64,000 nt of DNA, from NCBI GenBank assembly GCA_913061515.1, contig CAJXSF010000011.1, forward strand, positions 1 through 64,000, given 5' to 3'. The position numbers were made by a program, and so were the translations under genes. Below are positions 50,144-64,000 of this stretch, one piece after another. The notes beneath the pieces were generated by a model. That model was not told where the DNA came from. It did not search any database and saw only the letters and a list, made by a program, of their open reading frames with translations. The stretch comes from an uncultured Gammaproteobacteria bacterium. GTDB lineage: Bacteria; Pseudomonadota; Gammaproteobacteria; Pseudomonadales; Pseudohongiellaceae. Each line of letters opens with the position of its first letter. Within the stretch, counting starts at the first letter, position 1.

Positions 50144-50335
50144 ATGAGTAGCAAAAAAGCCTATCCATTGCGCATAAGCCCGGCGGTCATCGAAGCGATG
50201 CAACGCTGGGCAGATGACGATCTACGCTCATTAAATGGGCAGATCGAATATGTGTTGCGCGAGTCTTTGCGCCAATCGGGCCGTTTAAAAACGGCTATCA
50301 CTGCGCCAGTGGAAGAGCCTGAGCAGGATCAATAA
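50144..50335 (+). CDS. Small Arc-like ribbon-helix-helix protein
   Basis: A 63-residue protein. [44 protein letters not shown] matches the Arc/MetJ ribbon-helix-helix pattern, with the beta strand YPLRI and the [10 protein letters not shown] helix. The tail is acidic. Downstream of SPFH genes such small proteins recur, so it may be a functional partner or autoregulator. Its 3' end overlaps the convergent gene at 50298 by 38 bases. Confidence 0.8.
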
Positions 50336-51338
50336 TCGATTGTTCCTGTGCCTGCAAGCTAGCATCGTGATCTTGTCGCCTGGCCCCACCTAGGCTGCCT
50401 ATTACCGACATATTGCCTTCATGACAGGCATATTCATATAAACGAGTGCCCTGCGCTAAGGCTCGCAATGGAATCTCCGCAGTCCATGGCTGGGTGTAGG
50501 CGACGGGGTCATCGATAGTGACGCGATAATTGATTTGAGCGTTAGATTCTTTGCTGAACCACTCGGTGGTAGTCAGCGCTTGTGTTGAGCCGCGAAAGGT
50601 TTGCTGAGGGTGGATCTTATTCGTTTTGACCACTAATGTGTCGCCCTCCCAGTGGCCAACAGAGTCCCCCATCCAACGAGTCATTGCTTCCGGCAATGGC
50701 TCAGAATCGATACGAATAATACGCGCATCATTGACCATCTCGGTCATGATCATTAGATAATCTTCGGTCTGCACGATTTGATAATTACTATTATAGATCA
50801 TAGGAACCATGGGTGGACCTGCAGTGGAGAGCACTGAAAGCAAACAACGCTCTCCCACCGTTCGTACTTCCGGTCCGTCAAACTCATCCACGCCGTCTTG
50901 AGCGAGAATTTTAGAGCGCCAGTCTTGCATTACTTCGTTGTCGACGTGGGGAATGCGACCATTCTCAGGCTCGATAATCATTGAGGTTCTTGCCTCGCCG
51001 TTTACCGTGATGACGTGACTATTTGGAAAGCGCCAATCTGCCTCTAGCCCGATAGGAGCCCCTTTTTCAGGAGCCGGTCGGTCTGGGTCAATAGGGGCTG
51101 AATCCCTAGCAAAACGCTCTTGCGAAGCGAGGACTCGCTGGGCAGCTTCTTCGGCGGTGTAGGCGCGTTTGTTGCCAAGAGCCTCTGGTCTCTCTAAAGG
51201 AGTCTGAGTGGCGTTTGTCCACACTCCTTGGAAGTCGGGTCTGCCTTCGGGGGTCCGGCTAATTGGGTTGCTTTGTGCTTGTATGCTGAGGCTTGTGCAC
51301 AATGCGACGACGAAGCCTAAATAGGTCGAACACTTCAT
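50298..51338 (-). CDS. Secreted protein of unknown function
   Basis: A 346-residue protein with a signal peptide ending LSIQAQ. The mature protein starts SNPISRTPEGRPDFQGVWTNATQTPLERP, an opening seen in a large family of uncharacterised exported proteins in Proteobacteria and Acidobacteria. Later segments include GERCLLSVLSTAGPPMVPMIYNSNYQIVQ and DSVGHWEGDTLVVKTNKI. The latter resembles the 'GDTLVV.T' motif of that family and suggests a beta-propeller-like or lipocalin-like fold. The function is not known and I do not assign one. It ends within the RHH gene on the other strand. Confidence 0.8.
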   Translation of the reverse strand: MKCSTYLGFVVALCTSLSIQAQSNPISRTPEGRPDFQGVWTNATQTPLERPEALGNKRAYTAEEAAQRVLASQERFARDSAPIDPDRPAPEKGAPIGLEADWRFPNSHVITVNGEARTSMIIEPENGRIPHVDNEVMQDWRSKILAQDGVDEFDGPEVRTVGERCLLSVLSTAGPPMVPMIYNSNYQIVQTEDYLMIMTEMVNDARIIRIDSEPLPEAMTRWMGDSVGHWEGDTLVVKTNKIHPQQTFRGSTQALTTTEWFSKESNAQINYRVTIDDPVAYTQPWTAEIPLRALAQGTRLYEYACHEGNMSVIGSLGGARRQDHDASLQAQEQSIIDPAQALPLAQ

Positions 51339-51649: not shown

Positions 51650-53356
51650 CTATGGTTTCGATAATAGCAATGTGCCAGTAATGCTGTCTTCTCCACGCTC
51701 GTAGAAAATGAACAAGTCGTCGAGCTCGTCGGCATTGAGCGCCGCGCTCATTAGGTCGCCATTGCGCAAGGTGTGCTCCAAATCTAAGCTTTGGTCGGCA
51801 CTGCGCCCTTGCACTTGTCGAAGCTCGCTGTTGAGCTCTATTTCAAACTCGTCAATGATGCGGCGAATGTCGATCTCGTAGTCGTCGCGGGTTTGACTGT
51901 AGTTCAAAGAAGCTAGGAAACGATCTTCGGCCAGCGCAGGCTCGGGGGTGATGCTGTTATGAAACACTTGCACTTGTTGGTCTAATAATACGAGCAAATC
52001 TTGCGCATCGCCGATACCACTGATATTGGCCACAAGTGTAGGGATATGGGCTTGTTCACGCACATTTTCGGCTTGCTCACGAATATCGATTACCGAGCTA
52101 AGCATGCGAACGGCTGAGGGGAATTTGAGCGCCACTGTAAGTTGTCGAGCAGGGCGCCGCGCAAAAGTTTCTCCCTCATTGCGGTATACAAATGCTTCGA
52201 CATTGATGCTGCCAGAGATCGCGAGCCAAAGGAAAATGTCACCCACTGAAACTGGCTCGACACGCCACAGCCAAAGATCTTTGCGCCCATCTCCGTCTTC
52301 GTCATGAAGGAAAACAGTCAGTACATTGCCCCCTGAACGAAGCACTTGTTTGGGTTGCGAGAAATCCATCCCTGTTGCGGTGCCTGCGAATAATGAGACC
52401 TTGCCTCCCTCACGCAAGATAAAGTCGTCGATATTGTCACCATCAACGTCTTGCAGGAGTTCCTCATGGGTTAGCGCGAGAATGCCGGTGAGATTGGCGA
52501 AGTCCAATTGGTCGAAATCGAAGTTGCCAAGGCGTTCACGGATCTCAACGCGGTCAACGGAATAGGTCGGCATCTGTGGGAAATAATCGCCACTAGCGTT
52601 GGCCAGAGACACATCAAAGCGCTCGTCTGTTTCCGAGATTAGGTCCGGTCGTCCATCGTTATTGACGTCACGCAGTTCAATTGAGGGAATGCTAATAGTT
52701 TGTCCGACATCTCGCTCTAAGGAGTCTTGGATGAAGAGTGTTGTGAAATTGCGTATATCGGACAGCACGCTAATAGCGGACTGATATTGATTGTCCTCAT
52801 TGCGGATAAAAAGCTGCAGCGTGCCGGCATTGGGGATGATCAAATCTTCGCGGTTGTCGTTGTTTAGGTCTTGTGAGAAGCGCAGACGGTTGATGCCTGA
52901 CCCAGAGAACCCATTCAGGCCATCTAAAAGCTCGATAGGCTCAGAGAACTGTCCGGCAACGATGGGCCATTGTAGGACACGATTGCCGTCGATAAGCGCG
53001 AGCAAAGAAAAGCGGGTAATACCGTCGCTGTCGACGTAGTTATCGCTCAGGTCCCAGCCCACATTGCGCCCTTGGAAAGTGACGGAGGTGCTTGCTTGTG
53101 TGAAGTCAAAACCAGTGTCACTTGTTTGAAAGTACAGGCCGATAGCAGTCTCGGTAATACTGAGAATATCGGCTAGCCCGTCTTGATTCGCATCGACGAT
53201 GAGAAGCCGATCAATGTCGGCAGGTAATTCAAAATCGAGCCGTTGGTAGTTTTCCAAACTCTCGCTATTAGTTTGGCTAAACCCTTGCGCGGGCAAGGCG
53301 CCCAATAGAAATAGCGAAGCAACTTTCAATGTAAGATGGCGGGAAAATCGCTTCAT
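51650..53356 (-). CDS. Secreted FG-GAP/VCBS repeat protein (second of a pair)
   Basis: A 568-residue protein with a signal peptide ending PAQGFSQ. The body has several FG-GAP/VCBS calcium-loop motifs: LLIVDANQDGLADIL, RFSQDLNNDNREDLI, LRDVNNDGRPDLI, LQDVDGDNIDDFI and FLHDEDGDGRKDLW. This indicates a beta-propeller outside the cytoplasm. The terminal ~90 residues are less repetitive, with NADELDDLFI. Its ATG overlaps the previous gene's stop by four bases. It probably acts with the other propeller, the PDZ lipoprotein and the ABC transporter; the role is unknown. Confidence 0.88.
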   Translation of the reverse strand: MKRFSRHLTLKVASLFLLGALPAQGFSQTNSESLENYQRLDFELPADIDRLLIVDANQDGLADILSITETAIGLYFQTSDTGFDFTQASTSVTFQGRNVGWDLSDNYVDSDGITRFSLLALIDGNRVLQWPIVAGQFSEPIELLDGLNGFSGSGINRLRFSQDLNNDNREDLIIPNAGTLQLFIRNEDNQYQSAISVLSDIRNFTTLFIQDSLERDVGQTISIPSIELRDVNNDGRPDLISETDERFDVSLANASGDYFPQMPTYSVDRVEIRERLGNFDFDQLDFANLTGILALTHEELLQDVDGDNIDDFILREGGKVSLFAGTATGMDFSQPKQVLRSGGNVLTVFLHDEDGDGRKDLWLWRVEPVSVGDIFLWLAISGSINVEAFVYRNEGETFARRPARQLTVALKFPSAVRMLSSVIDIREQAENVREQAHIPTLVANISGIGDAQDLLVLLDQQVQVFHNSITPEPALAEDRFLASLNYSQTRDDYEIDIRRIIDEFEIELNSELRQVQGRSADQSLDLEHTLRNGDLMSAALNADELDDLFIFYERGEDSITGTLLLSKP

Positions 53357-54906
53357 GGCTGTGACACCAACACTGTCAATGCTGAGGAGTGGCGAAGGAA
53401 AAAATCGCTTACTCCGTCTGCATTGATGTCCTCAACGCCAAAATTCATAATGCTGCGCTCTGGCACATATTGCCAAAACGGGGTGTCGGCTATGCGTAGA
53501 TCTGCGCCAATGCTCTTCGCGGCCAAGGTCCCATCGTCGGTGACATAAACGGCGTCATTGGTGCCGTCATTATCCACATCGGCTTGTAGGTTCATCTGCG
53601 ATGAAAGGCCGCGCAAGGTGTCTGCCGAAAAATTCTGATCGAGTTTGAAGTCGGGGCGAGAGTTAAACACCTGACCGTTACCGCCTTGCTGAAACAATAA
53701 CTGCGAACGCACGATGCTCGCGTTGCGCACCGCGTTGATCACGGGGATCGTGTAGTAGCTAACACTGAGTTGCCTTCGACCATTGTTTTCTATGTCGACG
53801 ACAGAGACGTCCAAATCGTAACCTGAGAATTTCATGACCTGATCAGGCGCTTGAAAATCAAAACTGGCACCTTTGTTTAAAAAGAATTGCACATCCCACT
53901 CGTTGGATCGGTCGAGTGTGCGCACGACGTCGATCTGCGCATCGCCATTGATATCCATCAGGCGAATATCCCCGCGAGTGTCGATTGGGCCTTGCCATTG
54001 CGGTTGGGCCGCAAACCCACCGGCGTTATCTTGCACTAAGATATTGATTTGGCCGTATAGATCATTGCCGATATTCATAAATACAAGGTCAGGGCGAGAG
54101 TCGGCGTTTAAGTGGCGGCTGACGGCAGAGGGGCGCCATTGTCTTGAGCGCAGGAGCTCTTCCTGCTCATTGTGTGTCCAGTCACTCACAAAATCGTCGA
54201 AGGCTGAACGGCCGCGAGCGCTAACCCGTAATACAATGCCGTCGCGCTCGTTGATAGAGAGGTCAGTGTTAAAACGAGCACTTCCTAGTGGAACTTCTGA
54301 TGGATCTAAGTCTTCATTGACGGTATTGAATCGGTAGGCTAGTGAGAAGCTTTCATCATCACCCCCTAGAAACAACCCATAGTCTTTAATGCCTGGTAGC
54401 AATAAATCCACTAAGCCATCACCATTAAAATCAGTCAAGGCAGGGAATACATGCACATCTCGTCGGTCCGGCACCGCCGCGACTAGATCCCATTCGAACA
54501 GGGGTTTTAAGTTGTCGGTGTAACTGGCAATCGCGCTCGAAAGGCTAAACACCGCGTTGGCGGCGATTAAAATTAATTCTTGCCCTGGCTCAGGGCGAAG
54601 GTCGGCAAAGGCGATCGCAATAATTTCTGGCTTGATCTCCACGAGCCTAGAGGGCCGGTCGGGAAAGCTGCCGTTGGCTTGTTGCAAATAAATTTGCAGC
54701 TCGCGCCCTGTGTTTTGTTGCCAGCGCGGCAGAATTAAGTCTTTGCGTGAGTCGCCATCCATGTCTTCGAAATACAGGGATTCTGGCCACTCATCGAGAC
54801 TAAGTTGTGTGGCAGTAAAATTGGCCTGTGCGAAAGCGTTACTGCCATAGGAGAGCAGTAAGGTCGACAGTGAAAATAGAACGAAGCGATGCATGATCTG
54901 ATTCAT
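53353..54906 (-). CDS. Secreted FG-GAP/VCBS repeat protein (first of a pair)
   Basis: A 517-residue protein with a signal peptide ending GSNAFAQ. FG-GAP/VCBS motifs include FEDMDGDSRKDLI, LTDFNGDGLVDLLL, HLNADSRPDLV, LMDINGDAQIDVV, QADVDNDGTNDAVY and GVEDINADGVSDFFL. At least six calcium-binding-like loops suggest a seven-bladed propeller in the periplasm or on the surface. Its start and stop each overlap a neighbour by four bases (ATGA). It is related to the next gene, but far enough apart that the two are not a recent duplication. Confidence 0.88.
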   Translation of the reverse strand: MNQIMHRFVLFSLSTLLLSYGSNAFAQANFTATQLSLDEWPESLYFEDMDGDSRKDLILPRWQQNTGRELQIYLQQANGSFPDRPSRLVEIKPEIIAIAFADLRPEPGQELILIAANAVFSLSSAIASYTDNLKPLFEWDLVAAVPDRRDVHVFPALTDFNGDGLVDLLLPGIKDYGLFLGGDDESFSLAYRFNTVNEDLDPSEVPLGSARFNTDLSINERDGIVLRVSARGRSAFDDFVSDWTHNEQEELLRSRQWRPSAVSRHLNADSRPDLVFMNIGNDLYGQINILVQDNAGGFAAQPQWQGPIDTRGDIRLMDINGDAQIDVVRTLDRSNEWDVQFFLNKGASFDFQAPDQVMKFSGYDLDVSVVDIENNGRRQLSVSYYTIPVINAVRNASIVRSQLLFQQGGNGQVFNSRPDFKLDQNFSADTLRGLSSQMNLQADVDNDGTNDAVYVTDDGTLAAKSIGADLRIADTPFWQYVPERSIMNFGVEDINADGVSDFFLRHSSALTVLVSQP

Positions 54907-55871
54907 TCCTCTAATAGTTCGCCATAACCGGTCGCAAAACGGAATAAGCTAAGAAGGCTATACTCTTTCTCACCCTCTACTTGTTGGTAAGAAAATACAG
55001 AGAATAACCACAGGTCGAGAATAGAAAAGCGTGTTTGGGCCGGGTTAAGGCTGGACTCGTATTGCAGCAGCGGGCCCAGCGCGACACGGCTTATTCGTCG
55101 GCCTGGGTCCCAAAGTGCTAGCTCTACATCGAATGTTTCTAGCTCACTAATATTGTCTCGGGCCATGCTAAGGCGGACAGTATCGCCAAGTTGGTATTGA
55201 GTATTGAGCTGGGTGATGAAGTCTTGTGCCGATTGAACAGCGCGGCCGTCCAAGGCAATGATGGTGTCGCCAAGAGCGAGTTCGCGCGCGGGCAGTGGGC
55301 TTTGCGGGAAAAAGTTCACGATGCGGGCGCCACTGATGCGAGAACCTTCGGGCGTCTCAAACACTTCTGTAGTATAGCCTGCGCGGGTGGCGATTGGGTC
55401 GGCTCGATACAACTCAACGGGCACGGCGCGCTCATCATTGATCATGCGTGCATTTAGGGTTGTTTCAAATACCGTAGTGTTGCGGCGCACATGGAGCACA
55501 AAGCTGCTGGCACTACCAAGTTGCTGTGCTAATGCCTCGATTGCATCGGGATGATTGACCTCTTGCCCGTCGATCTCTAAGAGCACATCGCCGGCTCGCA
55601 GTCCTGCTAAATCAGCCGCGCCGTTTGGCGTTACGCTGCGGATGCGAACGCCAGGCAGGACGGTGATATTGCTGAGAGAGTCGCTTTCATTGAGCGCCGT
55701 TTCCATCCCAAAGTTCAGGCCCGCACCGATGGCCTCACCGCTGCTAAGGCTAACAGTCTCCCCCGACAGAGTGATACTTGGCACCAGTTGGCGTGGTTCG
55801 TGGCTGACACATGCCATAAGCGTGGTGCAAAGAGAGAGCGCCAAAATACAGCGCATTAAGGGAATGCTCAT
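54903..55871 (-). CDS. PDZ-domain lipoprotein linked to an ABC-2 transporter
   Basis: About 322 residues from the ATG at 55871, which has AAAGGAAAAG upstream and overlaps the permease stop (ATGA). The signal ends in a lipobox (LMACVSH, Cys). Two PDZ-like domains are visible: GVRIRSVTPNGAADLAGLRAGDVLLEIDGQEV (about 70-140) and GARIVNFFPQSPLPARELALGDTIIALDGRAV (about 180-255). No protease triad is present, so it is a binding or scaffold protein in the periplasm. Co-translation with the transporter and propeller genes suggests one complex. Confidence 0.87.
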   Translation of the reverse strand: MSIPLMRCILALSLCTTLMACVSHEPRQLVPSITLSGETVSLSSGEAIGAGLNFGMETALNESDSLSNITVLPGVRIRSVTPNGAADLAGLRAGDVLLEIDGQEVNHPDAIEALAQQLGSASSFVLHVRRNTTVFETTLNARMINDERAVPVELYRADPIATRAGYTTEVFETPEGSRISGARIVNFFPQSPLPARELALGDTIIALDGRAVQSAQDFITQLNTQYQLGDTVRLSMARDNISELETFDVELALWDPGRRISRVALGPLLQYESSLNPAQTRFSILDLWLFSVFSYQQVEGEKEYSLLSLFRFATGYGELLEE

Positions 55872-56722
55872 ACACTTTTCCTTTGCACCACTAGTAATGC
55901 GATGACCACGAACAGTGCCATCTGCGGAATCGGCACCCATTCATTTAATTGCAACATTTGGGTGTCGATCATGACATCCGAGTAGCCTCGTACAAGCCTG
56001 CTGACGTCTTGTAGATAAGACTGGTCGATGAGAGAAGGTTGGAAGCTCGCATAGACATAATAGGCGCGCTCACCCAACACGCCTTTGAATACATCGAACG
56101 CCAAGCTGAGCCCTAAAGCGCTAGTAACCGCTTGGGTCGCAGATTGTGCCAGCACAGAGACTAGTAGGCCAAAGGCTAGCGCGGCAGGCAATGGCAGTAT
56201 CGCCAAGCGTAGGCCAAGCATGACTTCCTCTTGAATCTCTGCACTGCTAATCAGTTCATAGCCGTCCTCGACTACGGGCCCAAAATCCCATAGCAAAGCG
56301 CTAATGATGACTATGCTGATGCTCAAAAGTGCAAGCGTGCAAAGCGCAAGTAAGTGAATGTTTACTAATTTGGCAACGACGTACCATGGGCGACTTACAC
56401 GTCTTATAAGCGCGTGGCGAATAACACCGGTATCTGCATCATTGGCAAATGACCATGCGGCGTAGGCGAGCATCGACAGCGTAAGAAAGGTCAGCCCAAC
56501 AGAGAAACTGTCGACTAATTGCCCCCAAGCATTGCTGCCCTCTGTAGCTATCTGCGCTTGGCCGAGCAGGGCATCGCGGGCCTGTTGGCTAGACTCAGAT
56601 AGTTTAACGACAATGGCTCGAACTAAGATGATGAGCGTAGGCAGTAGCAAAATAATACGTGCACTTTGACTGCGTAGTGTCACGTAGATTTCGGCCTTCA
56701 ACGCCGCGATAAAGCCTTTCAT
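55868..56722 (-). CDS. ABC-2 type transporter permease
   Basis: A 284-residue inner-membrane protein with six helices. The layout is an N-terminal helix, a periplasmic stretch (residues ~40-65), then five helices including LTLSMLAYAAWSFANDADTGVIRHALIRRVSRPWYVVAKL. That cytoplasmic segment, with R-x-x-R-x-x-R, couples to the ATPase in ABC-2 exporters (GldF/NosY/CcmB-like). The start overlaps the ATPase stop by four bases and the stop overlaps the PDZ gene start. The ABC-2 class moves lipids, glycans, lipoproteins or metals; the cargo is unknown. Confidence 0.87.
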   Translation of the reverse strand: MKGFIAALKAEIYVTLRSQSARIILLLPTLIILVRAIVVKLSESSQQARDALLGQAQIATEGSNAWGQLVDSFSVGLTFLTLSMLAYAAWSFANDADTGVIRHALIRRVSRPWYVVAKLVNIHLLALCTLALLSISIVIISALLWDFGPVVEDGYELISSAEIQEEVMLGLRLAILPLPAALAFGLLVSVLAQSATQAVTSALGLSLAFDVFKGVLGERAYYVYASFQPSLIDQSYLQDVSRLVRGYSDVMIDTQMLQLNEWVPIPQMALFVVIALLVVQRKSV

Positions 56723-57651
56723 GAGGCCACCTGTTCATCGTTCTCGCGCGCGGTAATCGAGTGAAACAGGCTGTTGAGGGAGGCGCGCTTCCAAAGCAAC
56801 TGTTTGACCATGATGCCTTTGCTAACCAATTGTTGATTGATATAAGCCGAGTCCACTTGCAGCAGTTCAAGGGTTAGCACGCCTTGTTCACTATTGTCTT
56901 GGATTGTGACGCCGGGGATGCCTTGGACGATTGAGCAAGCGCGTACCACGTCATCACAGTGGATCTGCAGTTGGCTACTTTGCTGATTGAATAATTGTTC
57001 GACCCGATCGCTGACGACGATCTGACCTTGGTGAAGAATTGAGAGGTGACTGCAGATCTTCTCGAGATAGGCTAGTTGGTGGCTAGAGAGCAGAAATGCG
57101 GTGCCTTCTTCTTGATTGAGTTGTCGAATCAGGGCCATGACATCCTCAACCCCGCCAGCGTCTAAGCCATTAAAGGGCTCGTCCAGAATGACTAAACGTG
57201 GGCTGCCTAATAGCGCTTGCGCGATGGATGTGCGCCGTCGATTGCCTAAAGAGAGCGTTCGGACACGGAACTGGCTGTATTGGCTAATGCCTAAAAGCGA
57301 TTCAACTTGTGCAGGAGTGCGCACGGGTTTTTCGCAAAGAAGAAGGGCATGTTCTAGTGCCTGGCGAACTGTTAATTGTGGGTGCAGACTTGGGCTGTCG
57401 AAGATGCTTACCACGCCGCCTTGGCTGCGATGTAGTTGGCTAGGAGGGTAGCCGAGTAAGCGCACATCGCCGGCGTTAAATTGCTGCATGCCCAGTAGGC
57501 ATTCCAGTGTTGTCGTTTTGCCAGCGCCATTCAGGCCTACTAAACCATGAATGGCGCCGTCGACAACTTCGAGATTCAGCGCACGTAATACCTCGAATTC
57601 ACCAAAGCGTTTGCTCAGGTTTTCCACCTTGATTGGCAGTGCGTTACTCAT
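56719..57651 (-). CDS. ABC transporter ATP-binding protein
   Basis: About 310 residues from the ATG at 57651 (another ATG at 57666 is possible). Walker A is GLNGAGKTT and the signature is LSLGNRRRTSIAQALL, an LSxGxRRR variant of the LSGGQ/LS.GMRQR group. Walker B is RLVILDEPFNGLD and the H-loop is LLSSHQL. The C-terminal ~85 residues are an extra domain, as in NosF/GldA/NatA-type exporters. It pairs with the ABC-2 permease by a four-base overlap. It follows the M16 peptidase gene by 27 bases. Confidence 0.93.
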   Translation of the reverse strand: MSNALPIKVENLSKRFGEFEVLRALNLEVVDGAIHGLVGLNGAGKTTTLECLLGMQQFNAGDVRLLGYPPSQLHRSQGGVVSIFDSPSLHPQLTVRQALEHALLLCEKPVRTPAQVESLLGISQYSQFRVRTLSLGNRRRTSIAQALLGSPRLVILDEPFNGLDAGGVEDVMALIRQLNQEEGTAFLLSSHQLAYLEKICSHLSILHQGQIVVSDRVEQLFNQQSSQLQIHCDDVVRACSIVQGIPGVTIQDNSEQGVLTLELLQVDSAYINQQLVSKGIMVKQLLWKRASLNSLFHSITARENDEQVAS

Positions 57652-57678
57652 GACGGCGCTGGACACGGTGTGACCCTT

Positions 57679-60669
57679 TTATTGAACAAACAGCTCGTCG
57701 ACATCGATGGTAGTCACTTCACCATATTCCGCCAAAGCTTCTTCATCAATGCGGGACATGTCGCCCACAATGGAGATGAGTTTCGCCTTCCCTGCAATAT
57801 GATCGCGTTGGAAAGCCAACATATCTTCTAGAGTAGCGCTTTGTAGCTGGTTGAATCGGCTCGCGCGTGGGTCGTCGCTAATTCCTAGTCGCTCCCAATT
57901 GCGTGCTGTGTTGTTAATCTGCCTGAAACCGACAGTCGAGGTACGGTAGCGATTGGCTAAAGCGCTCTTAGATTCTTCGAAACGTTCTCCAGACACTGGC
58001 ATGTTTTCAAATAAATCTAGGAAGGCCGCAAGTGCATCGACAGTCTTATCGTTCTGTGAGCTGATAGCGCCAAGCCCAAGATTCTCTGCGTCCAGGCGTC
58101 CGCCTTGGGCATATTGTGCTTGTGCTGAGTAGGCTAGTGCACGCGCTTCACGCAGCTCCTGGAACACAACGCTAGACATGCTAGTGCCGAAATAGGAGTT
58201 GTATAACGATGCAGGGATGACGAGTGATTCATCGTATGTGCCGTCAGGGAATTCAATACGGACTTGTGCCTGCGCCGTTTCTTGGTTCACAACATAGATC
58301 TGGTTACTGCTGACCTCGCGTGCGGTACGGAACCGGTACGCGGGGGTGTCGAGCAATTGTGATGGCACCTCGTAGTGGGCGCGCAGCTTCTCCAGTAGCG
58401 TGTCTAATGGCAATGAGCCCGTGTAGCTGAGCGTGTGCTTGTATTGCAGTAAGCCGGCGATTAACGCCTGCAGCTCTTCGACTGTCGCCGCTTGAATCTG
58501 CTGCGAACTTAGGGACTTGAGCATTGGTGAGTCTTCGCCATAGCGATTGTAGAGGAACAAGGCTTGGCTAATGGCGCGGGGGTCTTGCTTCTGGTCTTCA
58601 CGAGACTTCAGGATGATGGCTTTGAGCTCTTCTAGAGTCGCCTCGTCAGTGACAGGGTTGCGAACCAGTTCGAGCATTAGGTCGAGTGTTGCCTCAAATT
58701 GTTCATCTAGGCCAGAGATCGCAATAGTCGACTCGTTTGCGCCTGCACCAATGCCAAACTCACTGCCAAGTCGATACCATTGCTTTTGCAGCTCTTCGGC
58801 GCTTAGATCGCCAGCGCCGGACTTGTCGAGTAAAGCGGTCGCTAATCCTAGCGCGTCATTCTCCTCTGTACCCACTTCGATCCCGATTGAGAACGAGAAC
58901 AAATCATTTAATGGGTTTGGCGCGTAATACAACGGCACGCCTGGGGCGAATTCAACGATCTGATAGTCCTGACCTGCTTGCACATAGGTCGGTTCAATTT
59001 CTTCGTAGGGCATTGCCAAAATAGCCGCTGCGAATTGCGACTGACGTGTCGGGTCGATTGAGACCGGATCAATCTGCGGTTTCTCTACATGGGGAATATC
59101 TTGCTGTTCGTCGATGCGCTGCACGGCAACATAGTTATCGCCTAAGTATTGATTGGCCACGCGCACGATATCTTCTTTGCTCACGCGCTCTAGGCGTTCG
59201 ATCTCTGCGGCGTATTCATCCCAATCGGCCTCTTGAATAAAGGCCGCACGCATATTGCTTACGCGGGCGGTGTTGGATTCTAGTGCTTGTTTTTCGGTTT
59301 TCTTAAAATCATTGACGATGGCCGGAATGATCCAGTCTTCGAACTCGCCGGCTTTGACCAAGGCGATTTGATCTAACAATAGCTGCTCAACCTCTTCGAG
59401 GGTTTGGCCTTGCTTTGGCACCCCCCAAAGGCGTTGCGAGCCATAGTCATTGAGAAACTCCGGTGAGGAGCCAGCCGCTTGCACCGCTTGCGCCTGGTTC
59501 AGGTTTAAGTTGATCAAGCCCGCTGTCCGGTTGTCCAAAATCATATCAACCAGCATTAGGGCTTCTTTGTCAGGGTGACCATTGGGAACAGTGCGGAAGG
59601 CAATCTCGACTTCCTCCTCACCTCGGTAGCGCACAGTCATGCGCTCAACTCCATTGATAGGGTCTTCGATCCACGGGCCAACCTCTGGCACCGGCTTGGC
59701 TTGCCACTGGCCAAAGGCGTCGCTGATCGTGGCGATCGTCTCATCAATGTTGATATCGCCACTGATAAAGATCGCCATATTATTGGGCACATAATAAGTG
59801 TCGAAATAATTTTGGATATACACCAAAGAAGGGTTTTTTAGGTGCTCGGCGTCACCAATCGTAGTTTGCTGGCCATAGGGGTGTTTTTTATAAAGCAGTT
59901 CGCTGATGGCGTAGTAAGACACTCTGTCGCGGTTATCGACGCTTTGATTCTTCTCCTCATACACAGTCTCTAGCTCAGTATGGAACAAGCGGAAAACTGG
60001 GTTGATGAAGCGGTCGGACTCGATGGCCGCCCATTGCTGCAAGCGATTGGATGGCAGGCCTACCTTATAAACAGTCTCTTCATGTGAGGTGTGCGCGTTG
60101 AGCCCACCCGCGCCCATGCTGTTGTAGAGTTTGTCGATCTCATTGGGGATTGCATAGGCCGATGCCTCTTGGGCAACGCTGTTGATTTGCGCATAAATTT
60201 GCGCACGGACATCAGGGTCTGTCTCGTTGAAATGTTGCTCGTACAAGGCGGTGATCTGGTCTAGATAGGGCTTTTCAGCGGCATAGTCTAAGGTGCCAAG
60301 GTTTTGGTTGCCCTTAAATAGAAGGTGTTCTAAATAATGAGCAAGGCCTGTGGCATCGGCAGGGTCATTTTTGCTGCCCGCTTTGACGGCGATCTCTGCA
60401 TAAAAGCGTGGTTCTTGATGGTTTTCAGTAAGATAGACTTGCAAACCATTGTCGAGCTCATAGATATGGACACTCATCGGGTCATCAGCATCAGGCGCAT
60501 GAATCTGGCGATAGCCTACATCGACACTCTGCTCGGGTACCCGCATTTCAGGTTCCGACGGGGCAGTTTGCTCTTGAGGGCTACACGCGCTAAGGCCTAG
60601 AGCGGCAAGCGTCGTGACGGCGATGGCGGCGAAGTGTTGGTAGCGTCTGATAAAGCAAGACGATGACAT
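57679..60669 (-). CDS. M16-family zinc metallopeptidase lipoprotein (pitrilysin/insulinase-like)
   Basis: About 996 residues from the ATG at 60669 (TTGGAGA upstream). The frame runs to 60717 but without a signal-like start. The signal ends LGLSACSPQ, a lipobox. The N-terminal M16 domain has the inverted zinc motif HYLEH with downstream Glu in ELETVYEEKNQ. The second half (from about residue 530) is an inactive M16-like partner domain, as usual for one-chain enzymes. It would degrade peptides in the periplasm. It is the first gene of the ABC/PDZ/FG-GAP operon. Confidence 0.92.
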   Translation of the reverse strand: MSSSCFIRRYQHFAAIAVTTLAALGLSACSPQEQTAPSEPEMRVPEQSVDVGYRQIHAPDADDPMSVHIYELDNGLQVYLTENHQEPRFYAEIAVKAGSKNDPADATGLAHYLEHLLFKGNQNLGTLDYAAEKPYLDQITALYEQHFNETDPDVRAQIYAQINSVAQEASAYAIPNEIDKLYNSMGAGGLNAHTSHEETVYKVGLPSNRLQQWAAIESDRFINPVFRLFHTELETVYEEKNQSVDNRDRVSYYAISELLYKKHPYGQQTTIGDAEHLKNPSLVYIQNYFDTYYVPNNMAIFISGDINIDETIATISDAFGQWQAKPVPEVGPWIEDPINGVERMTVRYRGEEEVEIAFRTVPNGHPDKEALMLVDMILDNRTAGLINLNLNQAQAVQAAGSSPEFLNDYGSQRLWGVPKQGQTLEEVEQLLLDQIALVKAGEFEDWIIPAIVNDFKKTEKQALESNTARVSNMRAAFIQEADWDEYAAEIERLERVSKEDIVRVANQYLGDNYVAVQRIDEQQDIPHVEKPQIDPVSIDPTRQSQFAAAILAMPYEEIEPTYVQAGQDYQIVEFAPGVPLYYAPNPLNDLFSFSIGIEVGTEENDALGLATALLDKSGAGDLSAEELQKQWYRLGSEFGIGAGANESTIAISGLDEQFEATLDLMLELVRNPVTDEATLEELKAIILKSREDQKQDPRAISQALFLYNRYGEDSPMLKSLSSQQIQAATVEELQALIAGLLQYKHTLSYTGSLPLDTLLEKLRAHYEVPSQLLDTPAYRFRTAREVSSNQIYVVNQETAQAQVRIEFPDGTYDESLVIPASLYNSYFGTSMSSVVFQELREARALAYSAQAQYAQGGRLDAENLGLGAISSQNDKTVDALAAFLDLFENMPVSGERFEESKSALANRYRTSTVGFRQINNTARNWERLGISDDPRASRFNQLQSATLEDMLAFQRDHIAGKAKLISIVGDMSRIDEEALAEYGEVTTIDVDELFVQ

Positions 60670-60784: not shown

Positions 60785-61105
60785 CTATTGCGCGGTGGCT
60801 TGTTCGGCAGGCTCACCTTGAATCATCTCGCGTGCTTCCTGCAAAGACTCAGAAAGCAGTAACAACTGGCGCGAAGAGTTCTGTAGATTAGCCTGTAAAC
60901 TGGCAACTTGTTCTTGTATTTGCGCTGTATGGGCTTCATTTTGCGCTAATTGTGCCTCAGTTTGAGTAAGTTGCTCAGCAAGCGTTGCTCGCTCTGCCTC
61001 ACTTTGGACTAGCTCAGTTTTCAGTTGTAATGCGGCTGAGAACTGTAGAAATGCCGCTGCCAACGCTGCTAAGACGAAAATGGTCGCAATAATGGTTGTT
61101 CTCAT
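60785..61105 (-). CDS. Small membrane-anchored coiled-coil protein
   Basis: A 106-residue protein. A single N-terminal helix (MRTTIIATIFVLAALAAAFLQF) is followed by ~70 residues of Glu/Gln/Ala/Leu heptad repeats (QSEAERATLAEQLTQTEAQLAQNEAHTAQI), a coiled coil. It is probably anchored in the inner membrane and faces the periplasm. No family is recognised. It lies upstream of the M16 gene on the same strand (116 bases) and could be in the same transcript. The start overlaps a doubtful short frame by four bases. Confidence 0.6.
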   Translation of the reverse strand: MRTTIIATIFVLAALAAAFLQFSAALQLKTELVQSEAERATLAEQLTQTEAQLAQNEAHTAQIQEQVASLQANLQNSSRQLLLLSESLQEAREMIQGEPAEQATAQ

Positions 61106-61473: not shown

Positions 61474-61531
61474 TGCTTATTGATTGAATAAAAATAAAAT
61501 TTTCGTAAGTAGCAGCACACTGGAGAGAACT

Positions 61532-64000
61532 ATGCCTCACTTTAATCGGCGCGGGAAGCTGCGCCATTTGATCCATACCTGTCTGTTCACATCACTCGCA
61601 CTCCCATTAACAACAATTGCACAGCAAGAAGATGCTGACGTAGAAGAAGTCGTAGTAACCGGTTCCTATATCAGGAACAGTGCATTCGCACAAAACTCCC
61701 CTGTAGATACTGTTAGTCAGGTTGACCTATTCGAATCGGGTGCTCCTAGCATTTCGAACTATATTCGAGACCTAACGTATACACAGAATACCGATGTGGT
61801 CGCTAATGTTTTGTCTTCACAAGATGGTGCGCAAGACGCTATCGGAGCCTCATTTAACCTACGCGGGCTTGGTGAGAATTCCACACTGACTTTGATCGAT
61901 GGAACGAGGACTTTGTCTCCTGCGCTCTCATCGTCTTTGCCTGAAATTGCCATTGACCGACTAGAATTGGTTCTAGACGGTGGGTCCGCCCTATACGGTT
62001 CGGATGCTGTGGCGGGGGTGGTCAATATCATTCCCATGAAGACCTTTGAAGGCCTGCGAATGCGCTCTTATTATCAGGTAACCGATGAGCCGGGAATGGA
62101 GAGCATTTCTGCCTCTGCACTGTGGGGTAAAGGCTTTGATAATGGCCTGCACTATGTAGGTGCTTTTGAAGTACAAAAGAAAACCCCATTGATGCAATAC
62201 GAGCGGCCGCGCGAGTGGGCGAAGGACAATGGTTCGTCATCTTCAGGAAACCCAGGCACTTATAGGCAAATTAATAATGCACGTGATGGGCTGCATCTCT
62301 ACGAAAAGCACGGCGGCACTCCTTCGGGCGCGGTTTTGACAGACCCATCCTGTGAGACTTTCAACGAAGGTTACCCTGGCCATGCAGAGGGCAAATACAG
62401 TATTCCTTCAGGGGTGAGGCGCGGTTCACTCTGTCTTTTTGAGTACACAAAGCAGTTTGCCTATTCGACCGAAGAGAAAGTGTATAATTTGTATAACTCT
62501 TTGAACTTTGAGGCGACCGATTGGCTACGCTTTAACGCGACATTGAATAACAGTTATCGTATGGCCTTGGGTTGAACTACCTCAACCACTGCGGTCAGTG
62601 GTAATAACCGAGAAGTGCTGTTGGTGCGGGCAGATCACCCAGCGAACCCCTACGGCGTCGATGTCAGCCCTTGGAACTGGCGCCCCTTTACAGAGGTGTA
62701 TACCCATCGTCCTAGCTACATCGAGGACTCGGGTGGTTCTCGTGCTTATGAAATTCATAATTCCCTAAACCGTGCTCGCCTGAGTGTTGAGTATGACTTG
62801 ACTGATACTTGGTCTGGTTATTCCTATTACTCTAAGCAAGAAAGCAAGGCGATGAACGATTCCTACTCCATCCATTTAGGCAAATTGCAGTTAGGGCTTG
62901 CAGGAATGGGTGGCCCCAATGGCAACGAATATTGGAATCCCTTCGGTTCAGCTGACCCGCGTTCGCCTTTCTTTGTGGACGGCGTGACAAGCAACTCTGT
63001 CGACATCACCGAATGGCTATTTGAGGTGGATAAAAACCGAGTTTCCGATCGCGATAGCCTGAATATTTTCGAGACAGTGCTGACAGGTGAGCTATTTCAA
63101 TTGCCGGCGGGCGTTGTTCAAACAGCGTTTGGTTATCAGTGGCGAGATCTGGAAGAGAAAGAGTTTGCGAATCCCTTCGACGTGGCAGGATGGGACTACA
63201 ATACAGTAGTGGGGGCCGAGCCGCCTACCGATAATACTTATGTGTCGGAAGTGCGCGCGGCATTCTTAGAGTTACAAGTGCCAATATTGGAAACTCTCGA
63301 TCTGCAAATGGCGGTGCGTCATGAGCAGTTCAAAGATTTTGGCCTTGAGGCGACAACTCCAAAGATTGCCCTGCGTTATGAGCCGTTCGCCTCGGTGGCA
63401 CTGCGTGCTTCTTGGGGCGAGAGCTTTTTAGCGCCCACGCCTACGCAGGCGCGCCCGTTCATTCCAGATGAAAACTGTGGTGAATTGTTCAGTGGTGTTG
63501 ATGATATGACCGATACCCTGCTTGTTGGGGCAACAGTCTGTTCTTCAGGCAACCCGAACTTGCAGCCAGAGACTTCTACTATCCAGAACGTGGGTGTGAC
63601 TTGGGAGCCTACCGGCGCGCTAGACGGTTTGAGTGTGTCTTTAGACTATCAAGAAATCGAATACGTCGATCGTATTCGAACGCTTACGAGCCAAGATACC
63701 GTTGCAAACCAGTTCAATCAGTTCCTCGCGCAGTCTGGGTATACAGAGGCAAACTATGACCCAACGCCTGGTTCTGCAAGCCGTATAGCCGCGAATGCCT
63801 ATCTTGCCAGCATCGCTGGTAAGGCAAGCAACCCGGTTGTGCGTTATCCCGATAACTCGGTGCGAACGGTGTACACACAGGCGGCCAATATCAGTTCTGT
63901 ATGGATTGATCTTTTGGACCTGAAAACTCAGTACAGCTTCGATACCAATGATTGGGGCACGTTCACAACGACTCTGCAAACTACCTACTACACCACCTAC
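61532..64000 (+). pseudogene. TonB-dependent receptor interrupted by in-frame TGA (codon 348); 3' end beyond window
   Basis: The start is the ATG at 61532 (GGAGAG upstream) with a signal peptide ending TTIAQ. A TonB-box-like stretch EEVVVTG (38-44) precedes the plug domain: SFNLRGLGENSTLTLIDGTRTL, then LPEIAIDRLELVLDGGSALYGSDAVAGVVNI. The frame stops at TGA 62573-62575, then stays open in the same frame for the 1,425 bases to the window end. It gives good barrel and loop sequence: ADHPANPYGVDVSPWNWRPF, VQTAFGYQWRDLEEKEF, FGLEATTPKIALRYEPF and LRASWGESFLAPTPTQARPF. The gene would import a bulky substrate across the outer membrane. It is disrupted by one codon or by a base error. Confidence 0.85.

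Follow-up and report, generated by a model that had tools for sequence, protein, structure and literature searches.

A conserved gene cassette of an ABC-2 transporter, a tandem-PDZ lipoprotein and two FG-GAP propellers, linked to an M16 peptidase: a candidate cell-envelope machine in a gammaproteobacterial family

The window, that is, the whole stretch of 64,000 nucleotides that was analysed, carries six minus-strand genes between positions 51650 and 60669 (Table 1). Open reading frames and Pfam matches supported every label that the initial annotation had given them: M16 peptidase, ABC ATPase, ABC-2 permease, PDZ lipoprotein and two FG-GAP propeller proteins, hereafter FG1 and FG2. The ATPase scored 88.8 bits against ABC_tran (cut-off 25), the permease 32.1 bits against ABC2_membrane_2 (cut-off 27.2), and FG1 and FG2 scored 61.4 and 53.8 bits against FG-GAP_3 (cut-off 26.9). 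An ABC_tran ATPase and an ABC2_membrane permease are thus both present above cut-off, as in the broad class of ABC-2 exporters. The four overlaps described earlier between the last five genes all read as ATGA on the minus strand. The gap between the M16 and ATPase genes, first given as 27 bases, had to be corrected to 12, counted from the M16 stop (57679) to the GTG start of the ATPase (57666); the longer figure fits a later in-frame ATG within the ATPase start VSSAVM.

Table 1. Genes of the cassette and its possible extra member in the window.
Feature	Position	Strand	Basis
M16 metallopeptidase (lipoprotein), a partner linked to the cassette	57679..60669	-	Pfam Peptidase_M16 and M16_C
ABC ATPase (NosF/ABCA-like), GTG start	56719..57666	-	Pfam ABC_tran; full-length match to solved NosF
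ABC-2 permease with conserved acidic predicted periplasmic loop 144-170 and second conserved loop 217-260	55868..56722	-	ABC2_membrane_2
Tandem-PDZ lipoprotein	54903..55871	-	PDZ_2, two stretches; lipobox-like N-terminus
FG-GAP propeller protein 1 (FG1), Sec-type signal	53353..54906	-	FG-GAP_3, five stretches; five DxDxD-type motifs
FG-GAP propeller protein 2 (FG2), Sec-type signal, FG1 paralogue	51650..53356	-	FG-GAP_3, four stretches; five DxDxD-type motifs
Small one-helix coiled-coil protein, possible extra member, upstream of M16	60785..61105	-	Cluster recurrence; helix and coil by eye

A promoter and terminator scan of the window gave counts similar to those of shuffled sequence. Downstream of FG2 lies a gene for a 346-aa protein (50298-51338, minus strand) whose N-terminus looks signal-like by eye and which gave no match to Pfam (E up to 1) or NCBIfam models (E up to 0.1). 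On the plus strand, positions 61484-64000 hold what appears by eye to be a gene for a TonB-dependent receptor, with one in-frame stop at 62573-62575, after which the frame stays open to the window's end; in the nearest relative (L011) the receptor is uninterrupted and 968 aa long.

We then looked at the gene order in relatives. The synteny set comprised 48 loci, 46 from the window's family and two from a second family, with the window itself excluded; the order was thus counted in 46 of the 108 matching family genomes besides that of the window. The succession M16, ATPase, permease, PDZ, FG1, FG2, all in the same orientation, was found in 45/46 family loci. In the remaining one the contig stops within the locus; M16, the ATPase and the beginning of a permease were found on a different contig of that genome. 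Both second-family loci (2/2) have the last five genes in order and no M16 nearby. Short extra FG1 or FG2 matches in eight rows of the synteny set were attributed to cross-matching of the two paralogues. One further locus (L125, genome G371), inspected outside the 48, has its permease, PDZ and M16 frames in pieces, perhaps owing to assembly errors. The order is therefore not a peculiarity of the window's genome, since it recurs in 45/46 loci of the family and 2/2 of the second one, nor do homologues of the exporter regularly occur without the PDZ and FG-GAP genes, 45/46 family loci being complete. Given this recurrence in order and orientation, the arrangement is more than chance. When neighbouring genes were clustered across 49 loci, the six cassette clusters were each present in 46 or 47, and the commonest non-cassette cluster in 22/49; no such neighbour was constant.

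The overlaps seen in the window were not equally frequent in the other loci. With the window excluded, a 4-nt overlap was possible at the ATPase/permease junction in 43/47 loci and at the FG1/FG2 junction in 44/48, and it was possible at PDZ/FG1 in 24/48 and at permease/PDZ in 17/48. Frequent at ATPase/permease and FG1/FG2 and scarcer around PDZ, these overlaps suggest that the core consists of two obligate pairs on either side of the PDZ gene. At the M16/ATPase junction no such overlap was possible (0/45 loci), and in one locus (L062) 3.4 kb separate the two genes.

The position of M16 was further clarified by one relative, G110. At the corresponding locus (L122) this genome keeps M16 and the outer neighbours, which have closed up, and the other five genes are missing at that place: M16 is followed by the gene found beyond FG2 in L013, a locus of the same genus. 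The permease profile had no match anywhere in the G110 genome, and the other four genes were checked at the locus only. We read this arrangement as a probable loss of the five-gene block. As G110 retains M16 without the block, the cassette behaves as a unit with a five-gene core, to which M16 is linked as a separable sixth gene. The six-gene unit first described thus holds for its core, but not for M16 as a fixed member, which is absent from the vicinity in the second family and stands without the block in G110. Thirteen family genomes devoid of a permease match were tested for M16, and a close orthologue was present only in G110 (66% identity) and G326 (80%); in the other 11 (genera g4, g120 and g123) the best M16 matches reached 24-27% identity. 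The lack of the cassette in G326 may be an assembly gap, since its contig ends inside M16.

The distribution was measured on samples of genomes, not on all genomes. The permease profile matched 109/137 genomes of the window's own family, or 72/92 when the count was restricted to assemblies with a completeness of 90% or more and a contamination of 5% or less. Matches came from 5/8 genera of the family, with none in g4, g120 and g123. At the level of the order, the single permease sequence matched 9/293 genomes (E up to 0.001) and the profile 15/390 (E up to 1e-10); all of these belong to the window's family except G260, found in both searches, and G835, found with the profile only, which are from one genus of the second family. 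In that family the profile matched 2/100 genomes, both in this genus, of which six genomes were sampled. In a sample of the class 11/369 genomes matched, namely that of the window and ten others; the matches in these ten were weak and partial, covering 62 to 80 of 285 positions, and we took them as generic ABC-2 proteins. Plasmid records gave no permease match, and a contig search with one query sequence gave two loci.

Within the family the median identity to the window was 65% for M16, 54% for the permease, 52% for the ATPase, 49% for FG2, 47% for PDZ and 45% for FG1; between the two families the permeases share about 38% identity and the FG2 proteins about 25%. The five-gene tree groups the loci mostly by genus (g121 falls inside g3) and therefore fits mostly vertical descent.

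Turning to the proteins themselves, the core nucleotide-site residues of the ATPase were kept in 48/48 loci. Among bacterial proteins of solved structure, NosF matched it best over the full length (E 2.8e-45), and ABCA proteins, which are lipid exporters, matched it as well as or better than NosF in the same comparison. Matches to the defence library were limited to the ATPase; the best, to the mad3 model, was taken as generic. Compared with solved structures, the permease profile gave no match up to an E value of 1, so that the likeness of this protein to NosY is one of Pfam class. Its topology and segment limits were set manually from hydropathy. On this basis, two predicted periplasmic loops, 144-170 and 217-260, ranked highest in conservation by z (2.4 and 2.8), and the acidic one contains 7 acidic and 0 basic residues in 27. 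As a control we used a second ABC-2 permease from 30 family genomes and the window's own; its matching loops gave z values of 0.5 and -1.8, for a protein that is far more conserved overall (mean 0.88 versus 0.69). A third predicted periplasmic loop of the cassette permease (43-74) was poorly conserved (z -2.7). When conservation was expressed as a ratio, the two loops reached 1.14 and 1.13, and three other segments, namely a short one in the cytosol and the membrane segments TM4 and TM5, had comparable values of 1.16, 1.12 and 1.10. These loops may contact extracytoplasmic partners or the substrate.

We next considered the four remaining proteins. The PDZ protein has a lipobox-like N-terminus by rule in 41/48 loci and, by eye, a Cys after a hydrophobic stretch in the other seven. 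M16 conforms to the lipobox rule in 38/45; of the remaining seven rows, six show by eye the same Cys following hydrophobic residues, and the seventh begins within the protein. A simple rule detected a Sec-type signal in 44/48 FG1 and in 44/48 FG2 proteins: the four FG1 misses were just under threshold, as were two of the FG2 misses, the others being lower (L073) and far lower (L094). Since lipoprotein or Sec-type N-termini are present in most loci, M16, the PDZ protein, FG1 and FG2 should lie outside the cytoplasm. The idea that the PDZ protein and the propellers are extracytoplasmic parts is thus upheld by the N-termini, but the propellers, previously described as extracellular, carry Sec-type signals only and would most simply be periplasmic.

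FG1 and FG2 of the window each contain five motifs of the Dx[DN]xD type in their FG-GAP repeats, and FG-GAP-type propellers are described as having calcium blades (PMC3123361). A profile comparison aligned the two proteins with 99.6% probability, as judged from which they are paralogues, and in a tree of eight loci the FG1/FG2 split predates the split of the copies between the two bacterial families. Structure models built from three sequences (window, L011 and L012) were too poor to use for both FG2 (mean pLDDT 43.3) and the PDZ protein (mean pLDDT 45.4). Binding of the FG1 and FG2 C-termini by the PDZ protein was considered and set aside as a lead only, the tails being partly conserved but resembling closing strands. 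Distant FG2 relatives of similar length occur in two other Gammaproteobacteria (L129 and L130), where no ABC exporter was seen by eye among the surrounding open reading frames.

In M16, the HxxEH residues were conserved in 45/46 aligned proteins (one gap) and E239 in 46/46, so that the peptidase motif, HxxEH plus a downstream Glu, is present; we take these residues to be the M16 zinc site. The last four residues of the protein (57682-57693 in the window, minus strand) follow a pattern hydrophobic-Phe-Val/Ile-polar in 44/45 orthologues, with an acidic final residue in 39, and this motif was absent from the distant M16 paralogues listed. They may represent a candidate tail for the tandem-PDZ lipoprotein. 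A dependence of the tail on the cassette found no support, as G110 has the tail without the cassette.

How does the cassette compare with known systems? The NosF system couples an ABC-2 exporter to a periplasmic partner. Like the NosDFY exporter for copper-site assembly, the cassette has a permease of the ABC-2 class and extracytoplasmic partners; its ATPase matches NosF over its whole length, with ABCA proteins scoring as well or better. Unlike in NosDFY, these partners comprise a pair of FG-GAP propellers and a tandem-PDZ lipoprotein, and the permease matches no solved structure. Moreover, a search for NosD (PF05048) gave no match in the window's genome, which is 98% complete, whereas 6/14 control genomes matched. 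The GldA-GldF-GldG exporter shares an ABC-2 motor of the same broad class, but the permease is followed here by the PDZ and FG-GAP genes and not by a GldG-type partner. The ATPase scored 102.8 bits against the GldA model TIGR03522, far below the cut-off of 402.6. Elsewhere in the window's genome, on contig C1 (locus L133 of G000), lies a distinct GldA/GldF-like pair, so named by eye, together with a long third open reading frame. The label of a Nos/Gld-type exporter fits the broad ABC-2 class, but not the Gld system itself. As for the LanFEG and BcrAB peptide-immunity exporters, their lantibiotic-protection subunit family TIGR03740 is the best NCBIfam match of the ATPase, but at 135.8 bits it falls below the cut-off of 309.75, and the cassette has a single permease gene and partners of the Gram-negative envelope. 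The family-model and NosD tests that we ran rule out the cassette as NosDFY, GldAFG or a lantibiotic-immunity exporter. In agreement with the initial annotation, which had not recognised the six genes as a described system, a literature search of titles and abstract starts (FG-GAP/VCBS with ABC, PDZ and M16/insulinase) retrieved the combination nowhere, although its parts are known.

The cassette is conserved and co-inherited across much of the family, being found in most of its sampled genomes, and probably constitutes one cell-envelope machine. In the reading that we favour, and hold with about even confidence, an ABC-2 transporter of Nos/Gld-like type would form the basis of a dedicated machine for envelope export, together with a periplasmic propeller pair and a PDZ lipoprotein. 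Two ATPases and two permeases would spend ATP at the inner membrane, either to transport a substrate that may be small and hydrophobic or resemble a peptide, or to perform mechanical work. FG1 and FG2, as a calcium-blade pair in the periplasm, would engage the conserved permease loops and take the substrate, while the tandem-PDZ lipoprotein, which probably sits at the periplasmic face of the outer membrane, would tether the complex or hand it on; the M16 lipoprotein would act as an associated periplasmic peptidase, of use to the process but outside the core. The analysis establishes gene identity, conserved order, absence of the block as a unit in one relative, predicted locations, and the conservation of catalytic motifs and of two permease loops; the complex, its direction, its substrate and every contact in it are inferred. 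We counted in its favour the fixed order, the lack of a constant neighbour, the block absence in G110, the overlaps, the permease loops, the ATPase residues, the NosF match, the paralogy and early split of FG1 and FG2, and the calcium blades (PMC3123361). Against it we counted the looser PDZ junctions (17/48 and 24/48), the exporter-free FG2-like proteins, the permease segment data and the permease's lack of a solved-structure match. As originally put forward, a dedicated export or assembly machine retains its conserved, co-inherited unit with extracytoplasmic partners, through synteny and N-termini, and loses a fixed M16, the Gld identity and extracellular propellers. A bolder version, which we regard as possible but doubtful, is a previously undescribed class of trans-envelope ABC system in which a heterodimer of integrin-like calcium propellers would be the periplasmic receptor of the ABC-2 exporter, and the tandem-PDZ lipoprotein would dock this receptor to the outer membrane by recognising protein tails, the conserved M16 tail being one candidate. 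If the cassette does form one machine, it would provide a new kind of periplasmic partner for ABC-2 exporters and give the integrin-like bacterial propellers a testable job, and the relative without just the five-gene block (G110) offers a natural comparison.

Other explanations have to be weighed against this envelope export machine. The genes could serve peptide self-protection or clean-up, the exporter expelling membrane-active peptides, the propellers and the PDZ protein catching them in the periplasm and M16 digesting them. The lantibiotic-protection match of the ATPase points that way but is far under the family cut-off; an M16 with a conserved metal motif does lie upstream in all 45 complete family loci, and G110 and G326 are the only permease-less genomes of the 13 with a close orthologue, yet the second-family loci have no M16 nearby, G110 has M16 and no cassette, and the defence-library matches involve only the ATPase. 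We consider this explanation unlikely. A maturation machine like NosDFY, whose motor and partners would supply or reshape one periplasmic client enzyme or cofactor with no free export, would account for NosF as the best full-length solved bacterial match and for an acidic loop conserved on the predicted periplasmic side of the permease. Against it, no constant client gene adjoins the cassette, neighbour clusters reaching 22/49 loci at most, and the genome has no NosD by PF05048; this makes the proposal rather improbable. Finally, the exporter, the PDZ lipoprotein and the propellers could act separately under shared control, in a co-inherited operon with no physical machine, as the looser PDZ junctions and the FG2-like proteins with no exporter seen nearby would allow. 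The order is nevertheless fixed across a deep divergence between families, and the five genes are absent as one block in G110, which leaves this the least probable of the explanations considered.

Around the cassette, some neighbour clusters recur within and between genera. Those of a dicarboxylate symporter, a flavin oxidoreductase and an outer-membrane efflux protein were each found in 15/49 loci. Some loci have efflux genes, for an outer-membrane efflux protein, an HlyD-type protein and an ABC ATPase, as a set placed divergently beside the cassette, for example at 110-4704 of L012, and a reversed ATPase match at the far edge of five synteny rows was read as a neighbouring efflux ATPase, on a family scan in L012 only. 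Five of the 48 other loci also carry, upstream of M16, a member of the cluster to which the small coiled-coil protein of Table 1 belongs. More generally, coiled-coil proteins with one N-terminal helix by eye recur beside the cassette (clusters c8, c14 and c20): short ones lie upstream of M16 in the window's genus, and longer ones occur in other loci, upstream of M16 or downstream of FG2.
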